Positions 4,403 to 34,065 of a stretch of 34,065 nt of DNA are shown here, in pieces. The notes under the pieces are model-generated. The model ran no database searches. It saw nothing but the letters and a program-made list of their open reading frames with translations, and was not told the origin of the DNA. Each line of letters starts with the position of its first letter. Within the stretch, counting starts at the first letter, position 1. The position numbers and the translations under genes were made by a program. Source of the DNA: an uncultured Armatimonadota bacterium (lineage in GTDB: Bacteria > Armatimonadota > Fimbriimonadia > Fimbriimonadales > Fimbriimonadaceae); NCBI GenBank assembly GCA_903927025.1, contig CAIYLG010000041.1, positions 1-34,065 on the forward strand, given 5' to 3'.

Positions 4403-4994
4403 CTACCCCGGCAGGGGTTGTGCAAACTAGCCACGGGTTGGCGCCAAAGGCGGCTACCCGTGGGCTCGGGTGCGTCGGCGTGAATCTCCGGACCTACCCC
4501 GGCAGGGGTTGTGCAAACTAGCCACGCGGTTGGCGCCGAAGGCGGCTACCCGTGGGCCCGGGTGCGTCGGCGTCCCAAATCCACGGGCCGCGGAGCGGCC
4601 CCCCGCAACGCGGCGAATGCATTTTGGTTTTTGGTCAAAACCGGGGACACGGGTTTTATCGCTGCGCGGGGGGACTTCGTCCCTCGGGTTTGTGACGCCA
4701 TCTCGTCGTTATCCACGGGTAGGCGCGGAGCGGCCAACCGCGTGGCTAGTTTGCTCAACCCCTGCCGGGGTAGACCGGAAAATGCTTTGTTCCTATTTAG
4801 GGGACGTCATCTCGTTGTTATCCACGGGTAGGCGCGGAGCGCCAACCGCGTGGCTAGTTTGCTCAACCCCTGCCGGGGTTGGCCGGAAAATGCTTTGTTC
4901 CTTTTTGGGGGACGCTATCTCGTCGTTATCCACGGGTAGGCGCGGAGCGCCAACCGCGTGGCTAGTTTGCACAACCCCTGCCGGGGTAGACCGG
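4403..4994. repeat. Composite palindromic repeat array 1 (REP-like)
   Basis: The array has the order F-F-core-R-R-R. Forward units lie at 4403-4463 and 4494-4555; inverted units lie at 4713-4778, 4822-4886 and 4930-4994 (109 and 108 bp periods). Each forward unit has a small hairpin (CCCC-GGCA-GGGG) followed by CAAACTAG and a larger stem closed by CCACG...CGTGG; R units are the reverse complement. The core (about 4575-4708) contains the hairpin GGGAC-TTC-GTCCC and GC-rich inverted repeats. The same organisation recurs at 6439-6899 and 7521-7914. This array fills the gap between the sugar permease and the PadR gene. No protein-coding gene is supported here. Confidence 0.92.
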
Positions 4995-5010: not shown

Positions 5011-5060
5011 AATATATATTTTCTCTATGCATAACTCATAATTTGATATATACTCATCAT
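5011..5060 (+). promoter_or_regulatory. AT-rich putative promoter/operator of the PadR gene
   Basis: A sharply AT-rich stretch in GC-rich surroundings. It contains the perfect palindrome AATATATATT (5011-5020) and a -10-like TATACT at 5049-5054, exactly 6 nt before the ATG at 5061. There is no Shine-Dalgarno sequence. This arrangement suggests leaderless transcription starting at or next to the ATG. PadR regulators commonly repress their own operons through AT-rich dyads, so the palindrome is a candidate operator. Confidence 0.45.
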
Positions 5061-5390
5061 ATGGCATATAAACCGGAGATCGAGGCGTTGGTTTTGGGGG
5101 CGCTGCGAGAGGGGCCGCTTCATGGGTACCGGATTGCGGCGGCGATTAAGGCAAAGAGCGAGGGGGTGCTGAAGCTGGGGGACAACCAGATCTACCCGAT
5201 CCTTCATCGCCTCGAGGAAGAGGGGCTGGTCAGTGCGGAGTGGCAGACCCAGTTGGGCAAACCAGCCCGCAAGGTGTACGCCCTCACCGCCTCCGGAAGC
5301 GGCCGGCTGGAGACCCATAAGAAGAATTGGCTGGAGTACGTGTCCACGTTCTCCTCGGTGATTGGAGCAGAAGGTGTCGGAAATGTTTGA
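5061..5390 (+). CDS. PadR-family transcriptional regulator
   Basis: 109 residues, the usual size of a short (subfamily-2) PadR protein. Visible are the winged-helix signature VLGALREGPLHGYRIAAAI, then LGDNQIYPILHRLEEEGLV with its YP-LHRLE recognition region, and the wing KPARKVYALTASG, followed by a short dimerisation helix. The start at 5061 was chosen because all conserved sequence begins there; the frame extends far upstream only through repeat DNA. The last 8 bases overlap the following membrane-protein gene, so the two are probably translationally coupled. PadR genes coupled to a membrane protein with an N-terminal HAAS-type domain are a common pair in which the membrane protein is the regulated partner. 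The trigger is unknown. Confidence 0.93.
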   Translation: MAYKPEIEALVLGALREGPLHGYRIAAAIKAKSEGVLKLGDNQIYPILHRLEEEGLVSAEWQTQLGKPARKVYALTASGSGRLETHKKNWLEYVSTFSSVIGAEGVGNV

Positions 5391-6432
5391 GCAAAACGTC
5401 CAGTTCGAAATCGACCTCTACATAAGGAACCTCGGCCAAGAGCTGGATGTCCAGGGCTTATCCCCCAACCGGATCGAAGAGATCGTGCGAGAAGCCCGAT
5501 GTCACCTGGACGAGGCGATGGAATGTGCCGGCGCCAAGAACGCGACAGACGCCAGGCGAGTCCTGGCTGAATTCGGCAAAGCCAAGCGGATGGCGGCTCA
5601 GCACGGAGCAGAGATGAATCGGCCCAGGAAGGAGAAGTTCTTGTGGCCAGCGGCGGTGCTGCTGTTCCTGATGACCTTTCATGAGGGGTTCTGGACTACC
5701 CACATTTGGTACTACGTCACCGTATCGCTGTGGGTCGGAAGCGCCCTGTTCTTCTGGTTTGGGTTCCGGGGCCGCAAACCGATTGTGAGCCAGTTCGTCG
5801 TATGCATGGTCGCGTTTGTGGCTGTTCAGACGGCCTGGAACACAGCGCTGACGGTTCCCACGGTGTTCACCAGCGGCGAGATTTTGCCGGTGGGCATTCG
5901 TGAAGTGGAGCATGAAACGGCTCTGCTCCAGCAGACTCAGACGAAGCTTGAGGCTGGAGTCACAGAGATACAGCAGGGTATGCGCCTGTTCACTGAGTCG
6001 AATAAGGATAGGGCGGTGCCCAGCACCTTCCGCTATGGCACTGGCTACTGGGTGCCCGAGGGGATCCGGGAACTTCAACTGTCCATCCCAGCGTCCGAAC
6101 TCCATCCTTCTCTTCATGTGGGAACGTGGGAAGAGGCGGTGAAGGAGTGGACTGGCAAGGGCAACTTTGCTGGCCCCGTCGATGCCATCCGCATCAGCCG
6201 CGCAGATCAGTCGATGATCCGTTCCGGGTTTGAGAATCTCGCTTGGATCCAGCACCAGCCGATCACGGTTCGCGCCGCCATCGCCTACATCGCAAGCCTC
6301 CGCCGGGCAGGCGTCTATCTCGCCCTAGCCCTCGTCACCGCCAACTCCGGCTGGCTGTTCTGGCAACTCACCTACCTCCTTCGCGTCAGTCGACGCCGAA
6401 GGGGTATCCAAGCCAGATTCGAAATCGGGTAA
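5383..6432 (+). CDS. PadR-coupled membrane protein with N-terminal HAAS-like domain
   Basis: 349 residues from ATG 5383, which has AAGGTG 6 nt upstream; a TTG at 5362 is a weaker alternative. Residues 1-75 are helical (LYIRNLGQELD, EEIVREARCHLDEAM), resembling the cytoplasmic HAAS/permease-prefix domains found beside PadR regulators. Three hydrophobic segments follow at about 86-106, 108-128 and 134-156, then an extracytoplasmic part of roughly 150 residues with no recognised domain, and a final helix near 309-335 followed by a basic tail (RRRRG). The function of the extracytoplasmic part is unknown. It overlaps the PadR gene by 8 bp, and the pair is bracketed by composite repeat arrays 1 and 2. 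Confidence 0.85.
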   Translation: MFEQNVQFEIDLYIRNLGQELDVQGLSPNRIEEIVREARCHLDEAMECAGAKNATDARRVLAEFGKAKRMAAQHGAEMNRPRKEKFLWPAAVLLFLMTFHEGFWTTHIWYYVTVSLWVGSALFFWFGFRGRKPIVSQFVVCMVAFVAVQTAWNTALTVPTVFTSGEILPVGIREVEHETALLQQTQTKLEAGVTEIQQGMRLFTESNKDRAVPSTFRYGTGYWVPEGIRELQLSIPASELHPSLHVGTWEEAVKEWTGKGNFAGPVDAIRISRADQSMIRSGFENLAWIQHQPITVRAAIAYIASLRRAGVYLALALVTANSGWLFWQLTYLLRVSRRRRGIQARFEIG

Positions 6433-6438
6433 TTCCGG

Positions 6439-6899
6439 CTACCCCGGCAGGGGTTGAGCAAACTAGCCACGCGGTTGGCCGCTCCGGCCGCTTACCCGTG
6501 GATTCCGGCGTATTGACGTCCGGTCTACCCCGGCAGGGGTTGTGCAAACTAGCCACGCGGTTGGCGCCGAAGGCGGCTACCCGTGGGCTCGGGTGCGTCG
6601 GCGTGAATCTTCGGACCTACCCCGGCAGGGGTTGTGCAAACTAGCCACGGGTTGGCGCCGAAGGCGGCTACCCGTGGGCCCGGGTGCATCACCGTCCCAA
6701 ATCCACGGGCCGCGCCGCGGCCCCCCGCAACGCGGCTAAAACATTTTGGGCTTTGGCAAAACCGGGGGTTGCGGGTGTTATCGCTTCGCGGGGGGACTTC
6801 GTCCCTCGGGTTTTTGACGCCATCCCATCGTTATCCACGGGTAGGCGCGGAGCGCCAACCGCGTGGCTAGTTTCCTCAACCCCTGCCGGGGTAGACCGG
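6439..6899. repeat. Composite palindromic repeat array 2 (REP-like)
   Basis: Order F-F-F-core-R, with forward units at 6439-6501, 6525-6586 and 6617-6677 and one inverted unit at 6835-6899. The core at about 6690-6829 repeats that of array 1, including the GGGAC-TTC-GTCCC hairpin. The first forward unit carries a different inner stem (GGCCG-CTC-CGGCC in place of GCGCC-GAA-GGCGG), so base pairing is kept although the bases differ. The array ends 40 bp before the stop codon of the RAYT gene. No protein gene is supported inside it. Confidence 0.92.
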
Positions 6900-6939: not shown

Positions 6940-7395
6940 TCACTCCCAAATATATCGCTCCTCGCATTCCATTCCGTGCTCCCTAAAGAGATCCCGGAAT
7001 TCCTCTTGAAACGAAATCGCGTGGTGGTGCCTTTCTTGGTTTTCAATGTAATGCCGAACCGCCTCCACGCCCCGACCGTCAACCGAAAAGATTCCGTACC
7101 CGCCCTGCCAGGCGAAGTTGGCGAGGTCCGGCTGGCGGTCCTTGATCCAAAGACTCGACACCCTCTTAAGCTCTTTCACGTAATCAGACTGCGAGGTGGT
7201 CTTACCGAGGCTACAGAGAATGTGGACGTGATCGCTCACGCCGCCGATGGCCCACGTCTGGCAACCCAACTGATTGGATACAGCTCCGAGAAAGCCATGA
7301 ACCTCAAGGCGAAATGTCCGCTCACCGAGGAATGGGCGTCGGTCTTTCGTTGAGAAAACGAGGTGGACATTGACGGCAGAAAATGATCTGGGCAC
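6940..7395 (-). CDS. REP-associated tyrosine transposase (RAYT, IS200-like Y1 transposase)
   Basis: 151 residues from a GTG at 7395 that opens the family-type start PRSFSAVNVHLVFSTKDRRP. The HUH metal-binding pair is His56-Val-His58 in GGVSDHVHIL. The nucleophile candidate is Tyr116 in RHYIENQERHH, with Gln120 one turn away, and WQGGYGIFSV near 96-105 is also typical. These enzymes are single-strand DNA endonucleases that cut and join REP hairpins. Composite REP-like arrays flank the gene on both sides (6439-6899 and 7521-7914), as expected for a REPtron. The frame stays open upstream through array 3, but that sequence is only translated repeat. No lysine/glutamine-rich extension, terminal repeats or second gene of a full IS200/605 element are seen. 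Confidence 0.92.
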   Translation of the reverse strand: MPRSFSAVNVHLVFSTKDRRPFLGERTFRLEVHGFLGAVSNQLGCQTWAIGGVSDHVHILCSLGKTTSQSDYVKELKRVSSLWIKDRQPDLANFAWQGGYGIFSVDGRGVEAVRHYIENQERHHHAISFQEEFRDLFREHGMECEERYIWE

Positions 7396-7520: not shown

Positions 7521-7914
7521 CTACCCCGGCAGGGGTTGTGCAAACTAGCCACGGGTTGGCGCCGAAGGTGGCTACCCGTGGGCCCGGGTGCGTCGGCGTC
7601 CCAAATCCACGGGCCGCGTCGCGGCCCTCCCGCAACGCGGCTAAAACATTTTGGGCTTTGGCAAAACCGGGGATTGCGGGTGTTATCGCTTCGCGGGGGG
7701 ACTGCGTCCCCTCGGGTTTGTGACGCCATCTCGTCGTTATCCACGGGTAGGCGCGGAGCGCCAACCGCGTGGCTAGTTTGCTCAACCCCTGCCGGGGTAG
7801 GCCGGAAAATGCTTTGTTCCTTTTTGGCGGACGCTATACCCGTCGTTATCCACGGGTAGGCGCGGGGCGCCAACCACGTGGCTCGTTTGCACAACCCCTG
7901 CCGGGGTAGGCCGG
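7521..7914. repeat. Composite palindromic repeat array 3 (REP-like)
   Basis: Order F-core-R-R, with a forward unit at 7521-7581 and inverted units at 7741-7805 and 7850-7914 (109 bp period). The core at about 7600-7740 matches those of arrays 1 and 2. Its hairpin reads GGGGAC-TGC-GTCCCC here, so the stem is kept and the loop is altered. The array lies between the RAYT promoter side and the 3' end of the ABC permease gene. The 125 bp at 7396-7520 between RAYT and the array holds the palindrome listed separately and nothing else I recognise. Confidence 0.92.
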
Positions 7915-10524: not shown

Positions 10525-11220
10525 GGCGGTGGCGAGAGCCGATTGACGGCGTTCTGGCTAGCCAGAAGTACCAGAAACCGCGAGCGCTAAGGCCCTGCTT
10601 CAAGCCCGCCAGACGCCAATTCAGGTTCCCTCAACCGCCATCGTGGCGGGTGGAGGGCTCAGGGAGGGGGTGGCGGACTGAAAATGCGCCCCTGGCACCG
10701 AGTTGATTTCCAGCTACAAATCACGATTAGCAAGGACCCCGGCAAAGCCGGGAGCGCCAAGGCCCTGCTTCACGCCGAAGAGCTTGTAATCCAGGTTCCC
10801 TCTACCGCCATCGTGGCGGGTGGAGGGCTCAGGGAGGGGGTGGCGGACCAAAAACGCGCCCCTGGCACCGAGTTGATTTCCAGCTACAAATCACGATTAG
10901 CAAGGACCCCGGCAAAGCCTGGAGCGCCAACGTTCGCCACCCCCTCCCCGCCCTCCAGCCCGCCACTTATGGCGGTGGAGGGAGCCGATTTACGGTGCCT
11001 TGGCTTGGCCAGGAGTGGAAAGCACTCTTCAAATTCAAGCACTTTGTTCTCGCCAAAAAGGCGGTAATCCAGGTTCCCTCAACCGCCATCGTGGCGGGTG
11101 GAGGGCTCAGGGAGGGGGTGGTGGACTGAAAATGCGCCCCTGGCACCTTATCAAATACCAGCTACAAATCACGAGGAATGTGGACCCCGGCGGAGCCGAT
11201 TTACAGCGCTTTGCCTCGAC
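10525..11220. repeat. Intergenic GC-rich repeat cluster (family B)
   Basis: Three main copies share AGGTTCCCTC(A/T)ACCGCC, starting at 10623, 10793 and 11071. Each continues through a G-rich tract (GGGAGGGGGTGG), GCGCCCCTGGCACC and CAGCTACAAATCACGA. A C-rich counterpart at about 10929-10985 (GCCACCCCCTCCCCGCCCTC) is the reverse complement of the G-rich tract, so the cluster can fold on itself. Degenerate pieces extend back to about 10525. The same family closes the window at 33530-34065. Nothing between 10372 and 11273 looks coding. Confidence 0.88.
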
Positions 11221-11273
11221 CAAAATTTACTGGAGTTCTGAATTTTTGAGGCATGATCTAGCTTCTGGTGCCC

Positions 11274-16721: not shown

Positions 16722-17957
16722 ATGAACTCGCTTTTGCTTCCAATCGCCCTCATTTGTTCGGCAGGTCTTGGCAACCCAGCTTCGACCGTCCAGTCGGGCT
16801 TTAAAGTGGTTCACCAGCCCGATCGCCAGTCAAAGCCGGAGGGCGATACCTGGGGGCGGATTGACGTTCAGATTCCGGCAGCGATGCAGTTTGTGGCCTC
16901 AGATTCGCCATCGCGCCAATGGACACCGACAAAGATCGGCTCCGCGTATCTTTCCGATGCTGACGGCCATCGGGTTCTTCTTGGACTCTTGTACCAGCCG
17001 ATGCCAGGTCAGACGTCTTACGGCTTCTCGCTCAATCGCGGCTACGGCTGGCATTGGACGCATCCCAGGCTTGAGTTGGAAATCACGGATCGGCCAACCG
17101 AGACGCTGAAGCTCAGGGACTTGCCGGAGAGAGAGTCCGCAAATCTTCCTGAGGCGCTCGTCTCAGCCAACTTCACGCTGGAGGCGGTTCATGACCTTCA
17201 AAAGGCTGGTCTTGGAGAAGACGAGCATCATCAGCCGTTGCCCTCCGTGCCTGGCTTCGTCTTGAGTCCCACCCAACCCCTCACACTGGGTCCGGGTGAA
17301 ACGGTAGAAGCCGCTCTCAGTGCAACCGACTCAGCTCCAGGTCTGGCTTCGCTGATGTTTCAAACCATCATCGGGCCTTCAGACAAGCCAGGAAAGATGT
17401 TCATTCCCTATGCCTATGCGGAAAGCACCAAGGTAGGCCGGATCGCGATCCGGCGCATCAAGAAGGGTCCCACTAGCTTTGAAGTGGAGGTGCCTGGCTG
17501 TCGCCTCGTCTCCCGCTTTGGCGGATCTGGATTTGAGCTGGACCATGACGCCACTGTGCATCTTCCCAATGGCTGGAAAGTCACCGTCCCCCGCCAGTAC
17601 TCGGGCCCGTTCCGGGATGTGAAGCGAGATTTGAAGCGGATCGACATCCGCTGCGATGTGATCACATCATTTGCCTTGAGATCCACCGGGACGTACGACG
17701 ATCAGGCGTACGAGCAGATTCGACGTTGGGACGCCGATCAGTCCAGCCGTGAATGGGGAGTTTCACTCGTCTCCCCAACCCCATCCGATCTCGGCCTCAG
17801 CTGGGTGCAGATTCGCGGCAACCACTTCACCGGATCTGAGTCCGACGCACCCGTGAAATACGGAGACTTCACCCTGAAGCTAAAAGTCACCGCCCTCGTG
17901 ACCCAGGAGCTAAGCCTGGAAGGCTACACGGTCAAGGTCACGCCAGCTAAACAGTAA
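16722..17957 (+). CDS. Secreted protein, unknown three-member family (paralogue 2)
   Basis: 411 residues with a signal peptide (MNSLLLPIALICSAGLG) but no proper lipobox, so it may be released rather than lipid-anchored. It aligns along its length with the flanking paralogues: GDTWGRIDVQIP, NRGYGWHWTHPRLELE, LKLRDLPERE, VPGCRLVSRFGGSGFELD, VPRQYSGPFRDVKRD, and PVKYGDFTLKLKVTALVTQE at the end. It starts 63 bp after paralogue 1 and could be in the same transcript. An inserted loop near residue 320-345 (TYDDQAYEQIRRWD) is absent from paralogue 1. No catalytic motif is recognised. A tandem duplication of its neighbour is the simplest origin. Confidence 0.85.
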   Translation: MNSLLLPIALICSAGLGNPASTVQSGFKVVHQPDRQSKPEGDTWGRIDVQIPAAMQFVASDSPSRQWTPTKIGSAYLSDADGHRVLLGLLYQPMPGQTSYGFSLNRGYGWHWTHPRLELEITDRPTETLKLRDLPERESANLPEALVSANFTLEAVHDLQKAGLGEDEHHQPLPSVPGFVLSPTQPLTLGPGETVEAALSATDSAPGLASLMFQTIIGPSDKPGKMFIPYAYAESTKVGRIAIRRIKKGPTSFEVEVPGCRLVSRFGGSGFELDHDATVHLPNGWKVTVPRQYSGPFRDVKRDLKRIDIRCDVITSFALRSTGTYDDQAYEQIRRWDADQSSREWGVSLVSPTPSDLGLSWVQIRGNHFTGSESDAPVKYGDFTLKLKVTALVTQELSLEGYTVKVTPAKQ

Positions 17958-17982: not shown

Positions 17983-18219
17983 ACCTCGGCCGTGGCTTCA
18001 GCAGGCTTCCCCGGGGCCGGTTGGCGCGCGGGCACTTAGCCTAATTCCATCTAGTTTGAGATTCGAGCGACCCGGTAGGCCCTCCATTTGCTTTCAAGCA
18101 ACAAGATTTTGGGATCGGTCCCCTCGCCTGCCCGCGGCGGGAGAATGAGTCGCTCCCGAAAACTGGGTCGCTTGAATCTAAGATGTGAATCGCGCAGGTC
18201 GAGATGTAAAGCTTCATAT

Positions 18220-18275
18220 CCACGGGTAGGCGCATTGCGCCAACCCGTGGCTAGTTTACGTAACGTCTGCGACGT
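18220..18275. repeat. Solo inverted unit of the REP-like family, diverged but structure-conserving
   Basis: The large stem at 18220-18250 pairs CCACGGGT with ACCCGTGG and GGCGCA with TGCGCC. After CTAGTTT comes the small hairpin ACGTC-TGC-GACGT (18263-18275), where the array copies have ACCCC-TGCC-GGGGT. The small stem therefore has different bases but keeps its pairing. The unit lies 15 bp beyond the stop of the 18290-20920 gene and may protect or terminate that transcript. It is 10 kb from the RAYT gene. Confidence 0.88.
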
Positions 18276-18289
18276 ATTTCGGAACTATC

Positions 18290-20920
18290 CTAGTGCTGGC
18301 CTTGGGCTCGCTGCTCCATGAACTTGATGAAGTTCGGGTCGTCCATTACCATTCCGGGTTTGCCGCGTCGCTTTTTGAACTTGGGATCGGCGGGGTCGAA
18401 GGTGGCTTCTGGCTTGAAAACTCTGGGGTCGGATTGGATTGCCTTGTATGGGGTGAAGTCCGGCTTGTCCGTGAACATGTCGTCCAGAGGAGTCGCGAGG
18501 GCGTCGAAGAGGTTGTTGGGGCCCAGGCCGAAGATGTCGTAGATCGACCGGATGACGCTCATGATGCTGGTGTGGTCATGGCTCACGTAGTGGTGCTTGC
18601 AATACGGACCAATCGCGAGCACGAAGCTGCGGCATCGGTCCACGTGGTCGTTGTCTCCGCCCGGATCGTCCTCAGTGACAAATACCGCCATGCTCTTCCA
18701 CTCAGGGGTGTGAGACAGGTACTCGATGGTCTGGCCGAGGGCTAGGTCATTGTCTGCCATGTAGCTTGCCACGTACGGATACCCTTCTTTGGGGCGGGGG
18801 CCGGTGCCGTGGTCGTTGCAGTACGCGATGTTCAGGAAGCTAGGGATGGACTTCTTCTTGGAGCGGAACTGCTTCTCCAAGTCCTCTTTGAACCAGTCGA
18901 ACCGGGCGACGTCGGGGATGTTGGTGTTGAAGATTGGGAAGTCCCAGCACGTGTTGTCAAACAGCACCTTGGGAACCGGGAAGTTGATCGGTTCGACCGC
19001 GCCGGTCTTGGAGAACGGACCGTCCTCGTCCACACCGGGAAACTCGAACCCTTCTCCGTAGTTGCGGAAGCTGACGTGGCCACGATCCAGACCTTCCCAC
19101 ACGGAGCCGTTCTCCAGGTAGTCCTCCGGAATCTGCGAACCGTTGGACTCAAAGGACACATAGCGGCCTTTCGCATTTCCGGTTCCGAAGTGCCATCCCG
19201 CGTAATACAGTCGAGAGGTCCAGATGCTGGCGTAGACGCCGACCAGCCATCGGTGACCGTCTCCGCTCGCGCCGGGTTCCATGTAGAAGTTGTCGCTGAT
19301 TCCAAACTGCTTGGCAAGCGCCACATGGTTCGGCATGATCGGCACACGCTCGGTGCGGCCCTTCTCGCTGATCCACCCCTGGTCGCCATATTCGCTGTAC
19401 TTGGGTTCACCATCCGCACCGGGGACGGTGCCAAAAATGCCGTCGTAGGTGTGGTTTTCCTTAGTGATAAACACCACGTGCTTGATCTCTTTGGGGAAAT
19501 GCACGGTGCGCGTCAACGGACCGGTGAGGCCGTTGTTTTCCAAAACCTTCGCAGTCAATGAACTCAGCGAGCCCAAATGGTTGAGGTCGATGCGCTGAAT
19601 CAGGCCCGGACACTCGGCCGATCTTGGACGGTCATCGGTCTCGGACCGCTTGGTAAGGTAGCCACGAGGGCCGTAGCCAAGGCCGAACTGACTGCCTACC
19701 GACAAGGTGGCGTCGTCATCGGACAGCCTTGCCATTACGGGGTAGTAGCCAGCGGGGATGTGGCCAAGAACCTTGCCGGCCTTCGGATCGATCACGGCAA
19801 CCGCCTCAAGGCCGCTTTCGCAAACGTAGAGCCGAGATCCATCCTTGCTGATGGCGAGGCCGGTGGGAATCACGCCGCGAAGGCGCTCCACAAGCGGGGT
19901 TGGCGCAAGCTTGATGGTTTTGAGAAGCTTGAGGTTGGCGGCGTCGAAGACGGAGACGGTGTCGCTGTTGGCGTTGCTCACGTACAGCTTTCCGCCGTGA
20001 ACCACCAAGGCGTTTGGAGCGCTGCCGCCAACGGCCTTGCCGTGGTCGGCGGGGGCGTGGATCAGCATTCCGCTGATTGCCTTCTTAACCACGGTGGGGT
20101 TCGAAGGGGTTGAGACGTCGTAGCTCCAAACTGACTGCGCGTCCGGGGTGCCCGGCTTGCCGATACCCGGCACAAAGCGTCCCTCGAACTGCATTCCCTT
20201 TTCCGATTCCTTGGACGGAAACGCAAATGCGGGTCGGGTCAGGCCAGGGAGTCCGCCCTTTACTGGGGTGATCGCCGAGTAGTCAAACAGGCCGATGTTG
20301 GCCACATACACTCGGTGGGCAGCTTCATCGTAGGCAATCGCGTACGGTTCGCGGCCCGCTTTCACATGGCTGACAAGCTTCCGCGCTTCCAAGTCCACCA
20401 CGTCCAGCTCCTGGTTGGTGACGTCGACACCGTACAGGTATTTGCCGTCCGAGCGGATCGCGAGATCGTTGATGTACGAATCTTTGTCCTTTCCGGTATT
20501 GATCGCGATATCCCCGGGTCGCTTTTCCCAGGTTGCGGTATCGTACGCGCCGATCTCACCCTCATCTCCTTCGCTGACGTAGAGTGTTTTGCCGTCGGGA
20601 GAGAACACGGCGGCGGGGCTCCACTCCTTCTCTGAGATCATTTTGTGGCCGTTGGGGCTAAAAACGTGGATCTGCCGCTGGCTCATTCCAATCGTCGTCT
20701 TTCCGTCTGGACTGACGATGACGTTGAATAGGTCCTCACCCGTGTAGCTGCGCTCACCGATTGGGGTCACAAATCTGCCGTTGGGCAGGATCGTTCGTCC
20801 TCCTGGAGCCACATGGGCGGCGCGAATTCCAGCCGGGGCACCGAGGTGAGCCAATTGGGCGCTTAGGGCGGCGCGGTCTTGGGAAGCTACTGCCGCGAGA
20901 ATGAGCGAGACACAGATCAC
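18290..20920 (-). CDS. Secreted bifunctional YncE-type beta-propeller / phosphoesterase
   Basis: 876 residues. A short signal (MICVSLILAAVASQ) is followed by a YncE-like seven-bladed propeller to about residue 430, seen as repeats such as VIVSPDGKTTIGMS, AVFSPDGKTLYVSEGDEGEIG and GLAISKDGSRLYVCESGLEA. A phosphoesterase (AcpA/phospholipase C-like, alkaline-phosphatase fold) domain follows, with VVFITKENHTYDGIFG near 475-490, FGISDNFYMEPGASGDGHRW and AVFVTEDDPGGDNDHVD, which hold the expected Asn, Asp and His metal ligands. This fused architecture is a known family, usually periplasmic or extracellular, and probably acts on phosphate esters. The start is a GTG with AATAAT 6 nt upstream. It is divergent from paralogue 3. 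Confidence 0.93.
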   Translation of the reverse strand: MICVSLILAAVASQDRAALSAQLAHLGAPAGIRAAHVAPGGRTILPNGRFVTPIGERSYTGEDLFNVIVSPDGKTTIGMSQRQIHVFSPNGHKMISEKEWSPAAVFSPDGKTLYVSEGDEGEIGAYDTATWEKRPGDIAINTGKDKDSYINDLAIRSDGKYLYGVDVTNQELDVVDLEARKLVSHVKAGREPYAIAYDEAAHRVYVANIGLFDYSAITPVKGGLPGLTRPAFAFPSKESEKGMQFEGRFVPGIGKPGTPDAQSVWSYDVSTPSNPTVVKKAISGMLIHAPADHGKAVGGSAPNALVVHGGKLYVSNANSDTVSVFDAANLKLLKTIKLAPTPLVERLRGVIPTGLAISKDGSRLYVCESGLEAVAVIDPKAGKVLGHIPAGYYPVMARLSDDDATLSVGSQFGLGYGPRGYLTKRSETDDRPRSAECPGLIQRIDLNHLGSLSSLTAKVLENNGLTGPLTRTVHFPKEIKHVVFITKENHTYDGIFGTVPGADGEPKYSEYGDQGWISEKGRTERVPIMPNHVALAKQFGISDNFYMEPGASGDGHRWLVGVYASIWTSRLYYAGWHFGTGNAKGRYVSFESNGSQIPEDYLENGSVWEGLDRGHVSFRNYGEGFEFPGVDEDGPFSKTGAVEPINFPVPKVLFDNTCWDFPIFNTNIPDVARFDWFKEDLEKQFRSKKKSIPSFLNIAYCNDHGTGPRPKEGYPYVASYMADNDLALGQTIEYLSHTPEWKSMAVFVTEDDPGGDNDHVDRCRSFVLAIGPYCKHHYVSHDHTSIMSVIRSIYDIFGLGPNNLFDALATPLDDMFTDKPDFTPYKAIQSDPRVFKPEATFDPADPKFKKRRGKPGMVMDDPNFIKFMEQRAQGQH

Positions 20921-22439: not shown

Positions 22440-22471
22440 AGCGTTCCTTTGCATTGAGAGGGAGGAACGCT
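22440..22471. terminator. Bidirectional hairpin between convergent genes
   Basis: AGCGTTCCT (22440-22448) pairs perfectly with AGGAACGCT (22463-22471) across a 14-nt loop. It lies between the convergent ends of paralogue 3 (22418) and the nuclease-helicase gene (22589). No clear T-run is seen. Confidence 0.5.
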
Positions 22472-22490
22472 GGCATCCGCCGGCGCGCGC

Positions 22491-22554
22491 CGTGATGCTT
22501 CAGCACACGGCCCTGGGATTCGGAATTGCTGGGGCATTTCTCGCGGGCTAAAGC
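22491..22554. repeat. Intergenic repeat family C, copy 1
   Basis: CGTGATGCTTCAGCACACGG and the following segment to CATTTCTCGCGGGCTAAAG match the segment at 30884-30946 with about a dozen differences. Both copies lie in intergenic DNA. The origin is unknown. Confidence 0.7.
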
Positions 22555-22588
22555 CGCGCTCGGCGTGCCGTCTGAAGACAGCGTTCCC

Positions 22589-25500
22589 TTATTTAAAATC
22601 TGCGCTCCGGCCGTGGGATCGGATTTTGCAGAAGAGGTTGATCAGGACCATCTCTTCCAACCCGCTCGCTGGGCCATGGGCAATTCTTGGGTCGCCGACG
22701 ACGATCGCCAGACACTTGGCGCGGCTGATGGCTACGTTAATGCGGTTCCGGTCGAGGATGAAACCCAGGCCACGGCTGCCGTACTCGCCGTAGCTGGAGC
22801 AGAGGCTGAGGATGCAGATGGGGGCTTCTTGGCCCTGGAACTTGTCCACGCTTCCGACTTTGGCTCCGGGCGGCAGCGCCGCCTTTAGGCCCGCGACCTG
22901 GGAGTTGTAGGGCGAGATGAACACGAAGTCATCCAAGGTCAGCGCCTGCGTCATCCCGGTTTTGTCCTGATACGGAATCCCATCCAGCTTTTCAAACAGG
23001 CCGACCGCTGCCTGGATTTCCGCGTCGCTGCGCTGGACGTCCCCGTCGTGCTCCACCCCCACGAAGACGATGCCCGCCTCCTTCCCCACCGCGTTGGCCT
23101 GCAGCGTCTGAAGGGCGCAGTCCGCCGCCGATTGCAGACGGCCCTCGTAGATGCTCTCCGAAATGAACTCGCACACCGCCGGGTGCATTCGCCGAGATTC
23201 ACCGAGGAACAGACCCAGGTTCTCCGGAACCACCGCATGAAACACGGGGGCATCAGGCAGGCTCGCCTTGGTGTCTTTGAGGGCGTACTGCAGAACCGAG
23301 AGCCCGGAATCGCCAGGATGGGTGCCCTGAATCGGCTGCTCAAGCTGCATCTGATCGCCGAGCAAAACCAGATTTTGGGTGGACCGCGCCATCGCCACCG
23401 CGTTTGCCATGGAGACCTGGCCCGCCTCATCGATGAACAGGAAGTCGAGCTGATCCGCCATGTCTCCCAGCGCAAACAGCCATGCCGTCCCTCCAAGAAT
23501 CCCGCCCTTGTAGGTCGTGGAAGCCGCGCCGTTCGCTGCAGGCTTGATGCCGGGATAGTCGTCGAAGATCGGGTCCTTGGCATCGCCGCCCGCCTTCACC
23601 CCCTGAATCTCTTCGCCCGCCTCCTTCATGGCGCGACCACACTCCCGCATCAGGTTGAGAATCGCCTTGTGGCTGTTGGAGGCGATTCCCACTCGCTTGC
23701 CGCTCGCCACCAGGTGGGTGATCATCCGCGCCGCGGTGTAGGTTTTCCCGGTGCCAGGCGGGCCCTGCACCAGCAGACAGCCGCCCGTCATTCCGGTGGC
23801 GACTCGCTTCCCCGCCTCCAGCAGCGTTTCACCAGGAAGCCGCATCATGGGCGCCGCGGGGATGCGATGAAGCAGCGCTTGGATGCAGGGTCGCATCTCG
23901 CCCGCCATGAGGGCCAGTCCGGTCGCTTCCAGACACCCTTCCATCGGCTCGGTGCCAACGATCTCGTACGGAATGAGGCAGCCCGCCTCGGGGAACTTTC
24001 CACCATTGTTCTTGTCGAGGGAAGCCTGGGTCGCCTTAAGCTGAAACTTGCCCGCCTTTGCGTCGAGGCCGATCAGCGATAGCTTCCAGTTACGCAGCCC
24101 CTGGAACATCACGGTGGGCTCCCCGGAGAGCTTGCACTCTTGGTCGGGATCAAATTGGTAGGTCTGGGCAAACGACTTCTTCTCGGGAACCGGCTCACCC
24201 ACCGCGGTGACGTCGGCGATGCAGGCGGGGTCGTCTCGCAGCTCCTCCGTCGTCGCCGCATCGCGGTCGAACATCCGCCAGTAGACCGGCTTGGCTTCTC
24301 GCACGTGAAAGTTCACCAGCTCCCCCATCAGCTCGGCGGTGGCATCCCCCTTGGATCTAAGGTCCTCGGCAAGGGCGGCTCGGCGCACGCGGTCTTCCTT
24401 AGGCTCCCTCGTCTCCTCCGGTTTTGGGTCAGCATCGGGCGGCGGAGCGTCGTCAGGGGATCTCAGCGACCAGAGCCAGTCCAGAAGCTCGGCGGTGGAT
24501 TTGCAGTCGTCTTCGTTGTAGTCGCGGATGTCCTGCAGAATCGAGCTCTCCTGCCAGGATGGGGACTGGCGCGACTCGATCCAGCGGGAGTACTGGATGA
24601 TGCTGTCGACGGCGGTGGCAACTTCGGTTTTGCGCTTTTGCCGGTACAGGCGCTCCACCCGTTTGATGGAGTAGCTGTCCTCCCCGATTCTCAGGCTGTG
24701 CCGAATGGTTTGGTACAGGTCCACAAACACGCGGTTGCGCAGGAGGTCGTCCACCTCATCCTGCCGGGTGGCGTGCCGAGTGCTTAACCTGCGGACGGCA
24801 CTGACCTCGTAGGCGGCGTAGTGGTAGAGGTGCATGTCCGGGTGTGCCTTCCAGCGGGCGTAGGCCCAGTCGATAAAGCCTTCAAAGGCGGCCTTCTCCG
24901 ATGCTCGATCGTGGGCCCACCAATCCAGGAACGGCGGCTCCGCGTCCAGAATCCAGACTCCAAACAGATACTCCAGCCCACCTGGCGTCAGCGGGTAACC
25001 CTCCATGTCAAAGAACACGTCCTGCGCGCACCGCTTGGGCAGGTTGAAAAGGCCCTTCCCGGTTTCGTCCGCCATCTTCTCGAACTCGGGCGGGGCATCG
25101 GGTTGTTCCAGGCGCTTCAGCTTGGTGGCGTGCTGTAGCCGGGCCTGGGCCGCCAGCTTGGCCAGCGACTCCTCCGCCATGCGCGGCACCTTTTCTCCCT
25201 CGACGTTGGCAAGTTGGGCCAGGGTTTCGATGCCGGCTGCCCTCAGCTTTTTGATCTGCCCGGAGGTGATGCCGGCGACCTGGGTGAGATGGTCGGTCTC
25301 TAAAAAGTACGCCTTGGCGTGGGAATCCCACCGGCCATGGTCGGCACTGGGCAGCGGTTCCGGACGGCTGCCCAACGCGGAGTCGAACTGCGCCTGCATC
25401 GCCAGGAAATCCGCCCGGAGCTGGCGATAGAAGTAGATGAAGTCTTCGGTCCGGAATTCGACACGCTCTTGGGTCCCGAGAATGATGCCGAACTTCTCGG

Positions 25501-25975
25501 CGAGCGGCTCTTGCAGAATCCCCGCCAGCATGTCGGTGTAGCAGCTCAGTTGGATGGCGTAATACGGCTTGGGCGATCGGGCGAGCTTGGCATCCCAAAC
25601 CTGATACCGGCCGTCTTCGTTGAGGATAAGGAAGTCGGCGCGTCCGGCAAAGGCCTCATCGTCCAGGTACGGCTGATAGATTGCGGGGACCCGCCGGGCG
25701 AGCGCATCCAGGGTTTGGGTCCGGGCAGCTTCTGGGCTCGCGGGGTCGATGCAGACGAGGTCTGGGAATTCCTGTCGAATCTCCTCCAACACCGTGCGCT
25801 CGTGCTGTTCGCCAAGGGCGATGATCAGCTTCTGATCTTCCGACGCCTCATCCGGCTGAAGGGAGGACGGGTCTTCCAAAAACAGACGATCCATCCAAGA
25901 TGCAAACGGCGACTCCGAGAACCGAATCAGGTCCGATGGAGAGTAAAGAATCCGCCCAGCCGCCATCCGCTTCAT
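22589..25975 (-). CDS. TM0106-type RecB-like nuclease fused to an SF1 helicase
   Basis: 1128 residues from ATG 25975, which has TGGAA 5 nt upstream; the frame opens earlier, with ATGs at 25987 and 25984 and a TTG at 26032. Domains in order: a Cas4/RecB-like nuclease near 20-230 (GRADFLIL, then YQVWDAKLARSPKPY and IQLSCYTDML), a helix-hairpin-helix-like stretch (LTQVAGITSGQIKKLRAAGI), an RNase H-like exonuclease domain from about 320 (DVFFDMEGYP) to 495 (DYNEDDCKST), and a Dna2/Upf1-like SF1 helicase with Walker A QGPPGTGKT near 735, Walker B FLFIDEAG near 848, and late motifs KFQGQE and VAISRAK. A role in DNA repair, processing ends or R-loops, is inferred. It stands alone on its strand. No Cas genes are nearby. 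Confidence 0.9.
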   Translation of the reverse strand: MKRMAAGRILYSPSDLIRFSESPFASWMDRLFLEDPSSLQPDEASEDQKLIIALGEQHERTVLEEIRQEFPDLVCIDPASPEAARTQTLDALARRVPAIYQPYLDDEAFAGRADFLILNEDGRYQVWDAKLARSPKPYYAIQLSCYTDMLAGILQEPLAEKFGIILGTQERVEFRTEDFIYFYRQLRADFLAMQAQFDSALGSRPEPLPSADHGRWDSHAKAYFLETDHLTQVAGITSGQIKKLRAAGIETLAQLANVEGEKVPRMAEESLAKLAAQARLQHATKLKRLEQPDAPPEFEKMADETGKGLFNLPKRCAQDVFFDMEGYPLTPGGLEYLFGVWILDAEPPFLDWWAHDRASEKAAFEGFIDWAYARWKAHPDMHLYHYAAYEVSAVRRLSTRHATRQDEVDDLLRNRVFVDLYQTIRHSLRIGEDSYSIKRVERLYRQKRKTEVATAVDSIIQYSRWIESRQSPSWQESSILQDIRDYNEDDCKSTAELLDWLWSLRSPDDAPPPDADPKPEETREPKEDRVRRAALAEDLRSKGDATAELMGELVNFHVREAKPVYWRMFDRDAATTEELRDDPACIADVTAVGEPVPEKKSFAQTYQFDPDQECKLSGEPTVMFQGLRNWKLSLIGLDAKAGKFQLKATQASLDKNNGGKFPEAGCLIPYEIVGTEPMEGCLEATGLALMAGEMRPCIQALLHRIPAAPMMRLPGETLLEAGKRVATGMTGGCLLVQGPPGTGKTYTAARMITHLVASGKRVGIASNSHKAILNLMRECGRAMKEAGEEIQGVKAGGDAKDPIFDDYPGIKPAANGAASTTYKGGILGGTAWLFALGDMADQLDFLFIDEAGQVSMANAVAMARSTQNLVLLGDQMQLEQPIQGTHPGDSGLSVLQYALKDTKASLPDAPVFHAVVPENLGLFLGESRRMHPAVCEFISESIYEGRLQSAADCALQTLQANAVGKEAGIVFVGVEHDGDVQRSDAEIQAAVGLFEKLDGIPYQDKTGMTQALTLDDFVFISPYNSQVAGLKAALPPGAKVGSVDKFQGQEAPICILSLCSSYGEYGSRGLGFILDRNRINVAISRAKCLAIVVGDPRIAHGPASGLEEMVLINLFCKIRSHGRSADFK

Positions 25976-26225
25976 GGATTCCATCATGCAACATCGGCGC
26001 TGGTTGGGTTCAGAGAACTTGCAGGCGGCCAAATTCGGATTTCATTGAGCAGGAGAATCAAGGATGTTCGCTCAATTCGACGCAGGGTAAGAGCCGTTCA
26101 TTCTCCAGTGCAGATCAAAACTGCTCATTCAGAATTGAGCCATTATCACTGCGTTCCAAACCATTCCGTCACTTAGGAGGACTCATATCTGCAAATCAGT
26201 CCATGTCGTAGCGAAACAACTTTGT

Positions 26226-30813: not shown

Positions 30814-30883
30814 TCCATTCCTTCTCTCGGAAATGAGCGTGATGCGCATCGCATCGGGAATGCTGGATTCATCCGGCCTGCCG

Positions 30884-30946
30884 CGTGATGCTTTAGCGCA
30901 CGGCCCAAGGCCTTGGAATTGCCGAGGTATTTCTCGCGGGCTGAAG
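30884..30946. repeat. Intergenic repeat family C, copy 2
   Basis: CGTGATGCTTTAGCGCACGG through ATTTCTCGCGGGCTGAAG, matching 22491-22554. It lies between the unknown helical gene and the antitoxin gene. Confidence 0.7.
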
Positions 30947-30985
30947 ACGGCGCTCCAATTTCACCCGCAACCGCACGAGTTCGTG

Positions 30986-33506: not shown

Positions 33507-33529
33507 GGTTAGCGTGGCTCGGCAAGGCG

Positions 33530-34065
33530 ATCTGCAGCGCCTTGGCTTGGCCAGAAGTGAATGACACCACGATCGTGAAAGCCCTGATTCATGCCAAAAA
33601 GGCGGTAATCCAGGTTCCCTCAACCGCCATTCGTGGCGGGCGGAGGGCTCAGGGAGGGGGTGGCGGACTGAAAATGCGCCCCTGGCGCCGAGTTTATTTC
33701 CAGCTACAAATCACGAAGAATGTGGACCCCGGCAAAGCCGGGAGCGCCAACGTTCGCCACCCCCTCCCCACCCTCCAGCCCGCCACGGAAGGCGGGAGAG
33801 GGAGCCGATCTGCAGGGCCTTGGCTAAACCAGGAGCAGGCTAACTGCCCCAGTTATCTATGCGCTGATTCATGCCAGCAAGGCGGTCATCCAGGTTCCCT
33901 CTACCGCCATTCGTGGCGGGCGGAGGGCCAGGGAGGGGGTGGCGGACTGAAGACGCGCCCCTGGCACCTTATCCAATACCAGCTACAAATTACGAAGAAT
34001 GTGGACCCCGGCGGAGCCGGGAGCGTTGACGTTCGCCACCCCCTCCCCACCCTCCAGCCCGCCAC
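33530..34065. repeat. Intergenic GC-rich repeat cluster (family B), running off the window
   Basis: Two main copies share AGGTTCCCTC(A/T)ACCGCC at 33612 and 33892, separated by 280 bp. Each continues through GGGAGGGGGTGGCGGACTGA, GCGCCCCTGGC and CAGCTACAAAT. The C-rich counterpart GCCACCCCCTCCCCACCCTC follows at about 33755 and again at 34036, where the window ends mid-copy. They match the cluster at 10525-11220. No gene is supported after 33506. Confidence 0.88.

Follow-up and report, generated by a model that had tools for sequence, protein, structure and literature searches.

The repeated hairpin unit found in a 34,065-nucleotide stretch of DNA from an uncultured Armatimonadota bacterium (this whole stretch is hereafter called the window) is, when all of the evidence is taken together, very probably a REP-like element, formed of DNA hairpins, whose cognate enzyme is the Y1/HUH transposase encoded between two of its three arrays. 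The element apparently depends on the single-strand-DNA transposase gene that it surrounds. In its workings the system resembles a REPIN/RAYT pair, yet it lacks the features that define canonical RAYTs and REPs.

A composite hairpin unit in three arrays and a solo copy

Each unit consists, in order, of a small hairpin, a linker of 9 to 12 nt, the dinucleotide AG, and a large hairpin in which a T.T mismatch is conserved. The window contains 13 copies, all of them intergenic: six per orientation distributed across three arrays, plus a single solo copy (Table 1). In some array copies, folding is no stronger than in their shuffles (z from -0.1 to -1.4); the DNA folding of the solo copy (z = -6.5) was equalled in 0 of 200 shuffles. 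A PadR regulator and a HAAS-domain protein are encoded between arrays 1 and 2 (window 5060-6432).

Table 1. Units, arrays, and transposase gene of the window
Feature	Position	Strand	Remarks
Array 1	4403-4989		Units 4405-4463(+), 4496-4555(+), centre, 4713-4771(-), 4822-4880(-), 4930-4987(-)
Array 2	6439-6894		Units 6441-6501(+), 6527-6586(+), 6619-6677(+), centre, 6835-6892(-)
Y1/HUH transposase gene	6940-7395	-	151 aa, GTG start; Pfam Y1_Tnp, E 7e-24; NCBIfam IS200/IS605
Array 3	7521-7909		Units 7523-7581(+), centre, 7741-7798(-), 7850-7907(-)
GGGGAC-TGC-GTCCCC in array 3 centre	about 7696-7710		Lies outside the unit
Solo unit	18220-18275	-	Recovered by covariance model at exactly this position
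Solo large hairpin	18220-18250	-	One A.A/T.T mismatch
Solo AG foot	18251-18252	read on -	Linker lies between it and the small hairpin
Solo small hairpin	18263-18275	-	Separated from the AG foot by the linker

The solo unit is matched (E = 5.4e-11) by covariance model R2, whose 35 training rows derive almost entirely from other bacteria and include one window copy but exclude the solo itself. The solo copy spans 18218-18283 and lies between the stop codons of two convergent genes (16722-17957 on the plus strand and 18290-20920 on the minus strand). Its plus strand reads ATCCACGGGTAGGCGC-ATT-GCGCCAACCCGTGG-CTAGTTTACGTA-ACGTC-TGC-GACGT, and its large stem (CCACGGGT/ACCCGTGG together with GGCGC/GCGCC) is paired throughout save for one A.A (T.T on the opposite strand). 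The first-pass annotation had described this stem as perfect with a different inner arm: the pairing holds apart from that one mismatch, but the GGCGC/GCGCC arm is shared with the forward array copies, and only the reverse copies have another. Immediately upstream of the solo copy (window 18060-18180), there is an inverted pair, GATTCGAGCGACCC ... GGGTCGCTTGAATC, whose members are ~90 nt apart.

Two of the four cases that had been offered as compensatory change prove to be indels or one-sided changes and not true compensation. The small stem of the solo copy stands: ACGTC-TGC-GACGT replaces the ACCCC/GGGGT of array copies, with two pairs altered on both sides. In array 2, GGCCG-CTC-CGGCC (6471-6492) is of indel origin and does not align in register with the outer stem, and GCGCC-GAA-GGCGG, which had been named as its counterpart pairing, contains a G.G mismatch; in array 3, GGGGAC-TGC-GTCCCC (outside the unit) differs from the GGGAC-TTC-GTCCC of arrays 1 and 2 only in having one extra C and another loop.

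The same annotation had proposed testing covariation statistically on genomic copies, and both-side changes do exceed chance. We aligned 23 copies from this genome, picked by DNA similarity alone: pairing holds in 96.6% of cells, both-side changes occur in 11 cells (versus 2.5 +/- 1.2 in shuffles) and in 4 of 18 pairs, and the covariation score was reached in 0 of 500 shuffles. Covariation within the genome is real but modest because 7 of the 13 pairs in the large stem are invariant among these copies.

The transposase and the polarity of its flanks

The protein encoded between arrays 2 and 3 carries the HUH motif DHVH, a WQ motif, and the Y motif YIENQERHH. Its predicted structure (pLDDT 91) best matches hairpin-bound TnpA (Z 14 for ISDra2 and about Z 13 for IS608), with a lower match to the TnpA-REP structure 4er8 (Z 9.2). 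The NP(L/V)(R/K)xG motif that RAYTs have beside the catalytic tyrosine is absent (YIENQERHH stands in its place), and the protein has no match to NF047646 at the curated NCBIfam cut-off, which two other genes of this genome pass; the missing motif and the missing match rule out a canonical RAYT. By its motifs (DH[IV]H, WQ, and Y...Q..HH, in about 148 aa), and not by reclustering with the published set, we assign the protein to TnpA-Y1 subclass 1.2.

The gene sits between two whole inverted composites, and flanking by REP-like palindromes in inverted orientation is a mark of RAYT genes in REPtrons; the nearest half-units on either side, however, point away from the gene. Related arrangements recur around many of its homologues, about 100 of which (in a sample from one contig scan that may leave out near relatives) come from Verrucomicrobiota, Planctomycetota, and other phyla, with Y...Q..HH present in 97 of 101. 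Many of their flanks hold inverted copies of a small hairpin, 9 to 12 nt, AG, and a large hairpin, often with a second small hairpin after the large one. Counted on the same 93 loci on which it had first been noticed, the strict layout (small hairpin, gap, AGC, and large hairpin in the expected inverted orientation) is present on at least one side of 55 loci and on both sides of 30. Four flank searches (two sides, two strands) recovered 46, 39, 21, and 10 of these 93 loci, the first two counts being those of the expected strands, versus 0 to 2 in dinucleotide shuffles. These shuffles took the place of a swapped-partner null for inverted flanks, which could not be used, since the element family is common to unrelated loci. 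The strict layout is missing from about 40% of loci, some of which have diverged hairpin types or truncated contigs.

The outside test of this layout comes from six related genomes whose loci are absent from the model, five of them belonging to the same genus or family: the nearest unit always has its small hairpin outward, at 50 to 75 nt from the gene in five genomes and 206 nt in the sixth, whereas the window gene lies between whole composites. Elsewhere, two related transposase genes (loci L082 and L083, in genomes G013 and G014) have another hairpin at their flanks, CCAGGCATTGAAAATGCCTGG, which is perfect and has a true GTAG foot; the model matches this hairpin poorly, and further element types therefore exist.

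Dispersal of the element and its association with the gene

Model matches number 86 in this genome (E <= 0.1) and 5 to 148 in each of 12 other genomes, all of which were selected for carrying the transposase gene. In Ereboglobus (8 copies read) and in a Planctomycetaceae genome, the element occurs as inverted pairs of about 220 to 240 bp at different sites, and dispersed copies show compensated differences (such as CCCGGGG/CCCCGGG and CCCAGGG/CCCTGGG). Dispersed intergenic copies, often in inverted doublets, are a mark of REPs and REPINs that this element shares, the intergenic position here being that checked in the window only.

It is very unlikely that an ordinary autonomous IS200/IS605 element has the unit as its terminal structure and has left the dispersed copies as its decayed remains (MITEs). 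The transposase does have the Y1 fold with HUH and tyrosine, the catalytic motifs, and the NCBIfam match of IS200/IS605 (IS608 and ISDra2 among them), and single-strand hairpin recognition is its likely mode. The ends of IS200/IS605 elements are dissimilar subterminal hairpins (as in IS608), whereas the flanks here are inverted copies of one unit. Furthermore, IS200/IS605 is characterized by high-copy, near-identical transposase genes with subterminal hairpins, which is not the pattern here: the gene has few and diverged copies in this genome (two homologues, mutually 50% identical) against 86 elements, many copies, including inverted pairs, are dispersed without it, and no tnpB was noticed beside the window gene.

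Presence of the REP-like element goes with presence of the gene. Within the genus, the element was found in 11 of 14 gene-positive genomes versus 1 of 6 gene-negative ones (p = 0.018, Spearman 0.67), and in a phylum sample of 151 genomes, co-occurrence has p = 2e-7 with strong gene matches and p = 5e-5 with all matches, these p values being confounded by kinship, which inflates significance. Gene-positive genomes of the phylum with no model match amount to 8 of 18 (strong gene matches) or 38 of 51 (all matches), and three genomes possess elements without the gene, reflecting either gene loss or another enzyme acting. Element distance also follows protein distance (rho = 0.78, 0 of 2000 permutations, n = 48), which argues against a casual association; common descent alone could also give this congruence.

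Pairing is conserved at the level of DNA

Covariation also holds across lineages. Among 35 loci, both-side changes affect 11 of 17 pairs and 67 cells (versus 15 +/- 2.9 in shuffles), in rows selected for paired stems, such that the percentage paired is biased. A selection-free test, which took the structure solely from the upstream copy and found the downstream one by sequence (30 loci), gave 66 double changes versus 23 expected, 45 of which restore a pair, against 11 to 14 in slid controls. Mapped on the protein tree, the changes require no fewer than 46 independent Watson-Crick-to-Watson-Crick replacements, as compared with 10 non-Watson-Crick cells, in rows that were likewise chosen for paired stems. 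The central claim of the first-pass annotation, that pairing and not sequence is being conserved, is supported by these counts.

That claim had been taken to point to selection on a folded single-stranded DNA or RNA, and the kinds of pairs that occur narrow this to DNA. The 2466 cells of 149 distinct model matches comprise 2375 Watson-Crick, 10 G.T, 11 A.C, and 70 other combinations, with no strand bias. A constraint on RNA from one strand is expected to favour G.U over A.C; because G.T shows no excess over A.C, we place the selection on DNA and not RNA. The polarity and spacing of the unit relative to the transposase gene, the congruence of element and protein, and the absence from the window of any match to Rfam families at gathering score further argue against the hairpins having been selected as RNA (as terminators, mRNA stabilizers, or small structured RNAs) with an incidental link to the transposase, a reading that we regard as very unlikely despite the intergenic position of all 13 window copies, the convergent genes on either side of the solo copy, and the possibility that REPs elsewhere act as RNA elements (PMC3733652).

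Two features of the unit are nearly fixed among the 149 model matches: AG precedes the stem in 148 to 149, and the mismatch is T.T in 134 and C.C in 6. The canonical REP foot, GT[AG]G, is not the one found, which is NNAG (CTAG, AAAG, CCAG, or TTAG), with GTAG in only a few matches. Of the GTAG bases, the last two matter most for cleavage in the REPtron of S. maltophilia and, with one of two substrates, show the strongest selection in that of Marinomonas (PMC8266576), which suggests, by analogy, that the AG foot plays their role here.

Relation to known repeat-transposase systems

The element resembles the REPs, REPINs, and BIMEs that accompany RAYTs (TnpA-REP; the REPtrons of E. coli, Pseudomonas, and Stenotrophomonas) in being a short imperfect palindrome with a conserved unpaired 5' foot, in forming inverted pairs and clusters, in flanking a low-copy Y1/HUH transposase gene with inverted copies, and in co-evolving with the enzyme (PMC2817692, PMC3116915); a conserved stem mismatch is also shared with the REPs of E. 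coli. It differs in its foot, in the extra small hairpin (often also a third) of each unit, and in its enzyme, which is of class 1 and lacks both the NP motif and the NF047646 match. It is scarcely credible that the elements are those of the canonical RAYTs of this genome (NF047646 type, on contigs C66 and C58), with mere clustering near the subclass 1.2 gene: the genome does have both RAYT types, but the C66 gene is flanked by a different inverted repeat, GGAACGCTGGCTTCAGCCGG, and the C58 gene by another, ending GCTTCAGC, and across phyla, it is the subclass 1.2 gene that has the unit at its flanks, and the subclass 1.2 protein that the sequence of the unit follows.

The window also contains other repeats. 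One family, GGAACGCTGGCNTC..GCCGGCGCG (window 22464-22556 and 30857-30949), flanks the NF047646-type gene at C66 in inverted orientation, the C58 gene having its own inverted flank, and a second REP-RAYT pair seems to coexist in the genome. A palindrome-rich family with 205-nt copies (GGTTCCCTCAACCGCCATCGTGGCGGG...) occupies 10575-11244 and 33525-34065, in tandem at 170 and 278 nt and also at the contig end; two repeat copies, with CCCTCTCCC..CACTGAGGGAGAGGG, lie ~217 nt apart within 1-496; and a 21-bp tandem repeat (23006-23048) falls within a long open frame (22589-26032 on the minus strand). The assembly probably breaks where it does because both contig ends are repeats.

TnpA-Y1 subclass 1.2 was tabulated by Quentin et al. 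(2018) without REPs and generally without IS200 end structures, and was reported mostly from Cyanobacteria and Bacteroidetes (PMC6006769). The enzymes considered here share with the published subclass the DHVH, WQ, and Y...Q..HH motifs, a size of about 150 aa, and low copy number, but elements flank the gene, and they do so in Verrucomicrobiota, Planctomycetota, and other phyla. The association of REP-like elements with a subclass 1.2 transposase is a new observation: text searches of the literature, whose coverage mostly excludes subscription journals and for which absence is no proof, returned no report of REPs for this subclass, and searches with the core sequences of the element returned unrelated papers only. 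TIRYT/TIRtron systems (PMC3733652) also have Y1 transposase genes with flanking inverted repeats, self-complementary and repeated in some cases, but their enzymes are mostly of class 2.1 with C-terminal domains, and many of their repeats carry GGGGWSAS.

A possible mechanism and its implications

From the behavior of IS608/ISDra2 and TnpA-REP, we infer how such a system might operate. The strand that reads 5'-small hairpin-linker-AG-large mismatched hairpin would become single-stranded, for example, on the lagging-strand template, and a transposase dimer would recognize the T.T mismatch and the invariant AG foot as it binds the large hairpin. The catalytic tyrosine would cut near the outer small hairpin and rejoin the strand elsewhere, by which inverted unit pairs (REPIN- or BIME-like) and, rarely, the gene with its flanks would be copied or moved. 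The elements may be mobile at present, and this gene, as opposed to another, would be their mover. Compensatory changes would build up if the enzyme needs the fold and the mismatch more than most of the stem sequence, and they may also arise from co-evolution of element and enzyme.

We lean toward the broader view that a branch of IS200-like HUH transposases, catalogued without REPs, runs its own cross-phylum REPIN system, built of composite multi-hairpin units (small-large-small, in an inverted pair) with an NNAG foot. If true, RAYT-REP would have here a counterpart, either independently derived or ancestral, that is closer to IS200 than those already known. For the origin of REPs and domesticated transposases from IS200-type elements, a possible intermediate, or a second origin, may be at hand: the enzyme of this REPIN-like system is closer to IS200 than RAYTs are, and the system is spread over several poorly studied phyla. 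The proposed system yields concrete predictions (the T.T mismatch, the AG foot, and a cut near the outer small hairpin) and gives a name to a class of palindromic repeats that is abundant in some genomes of Verrucomicrobiota and Planctomycetota.
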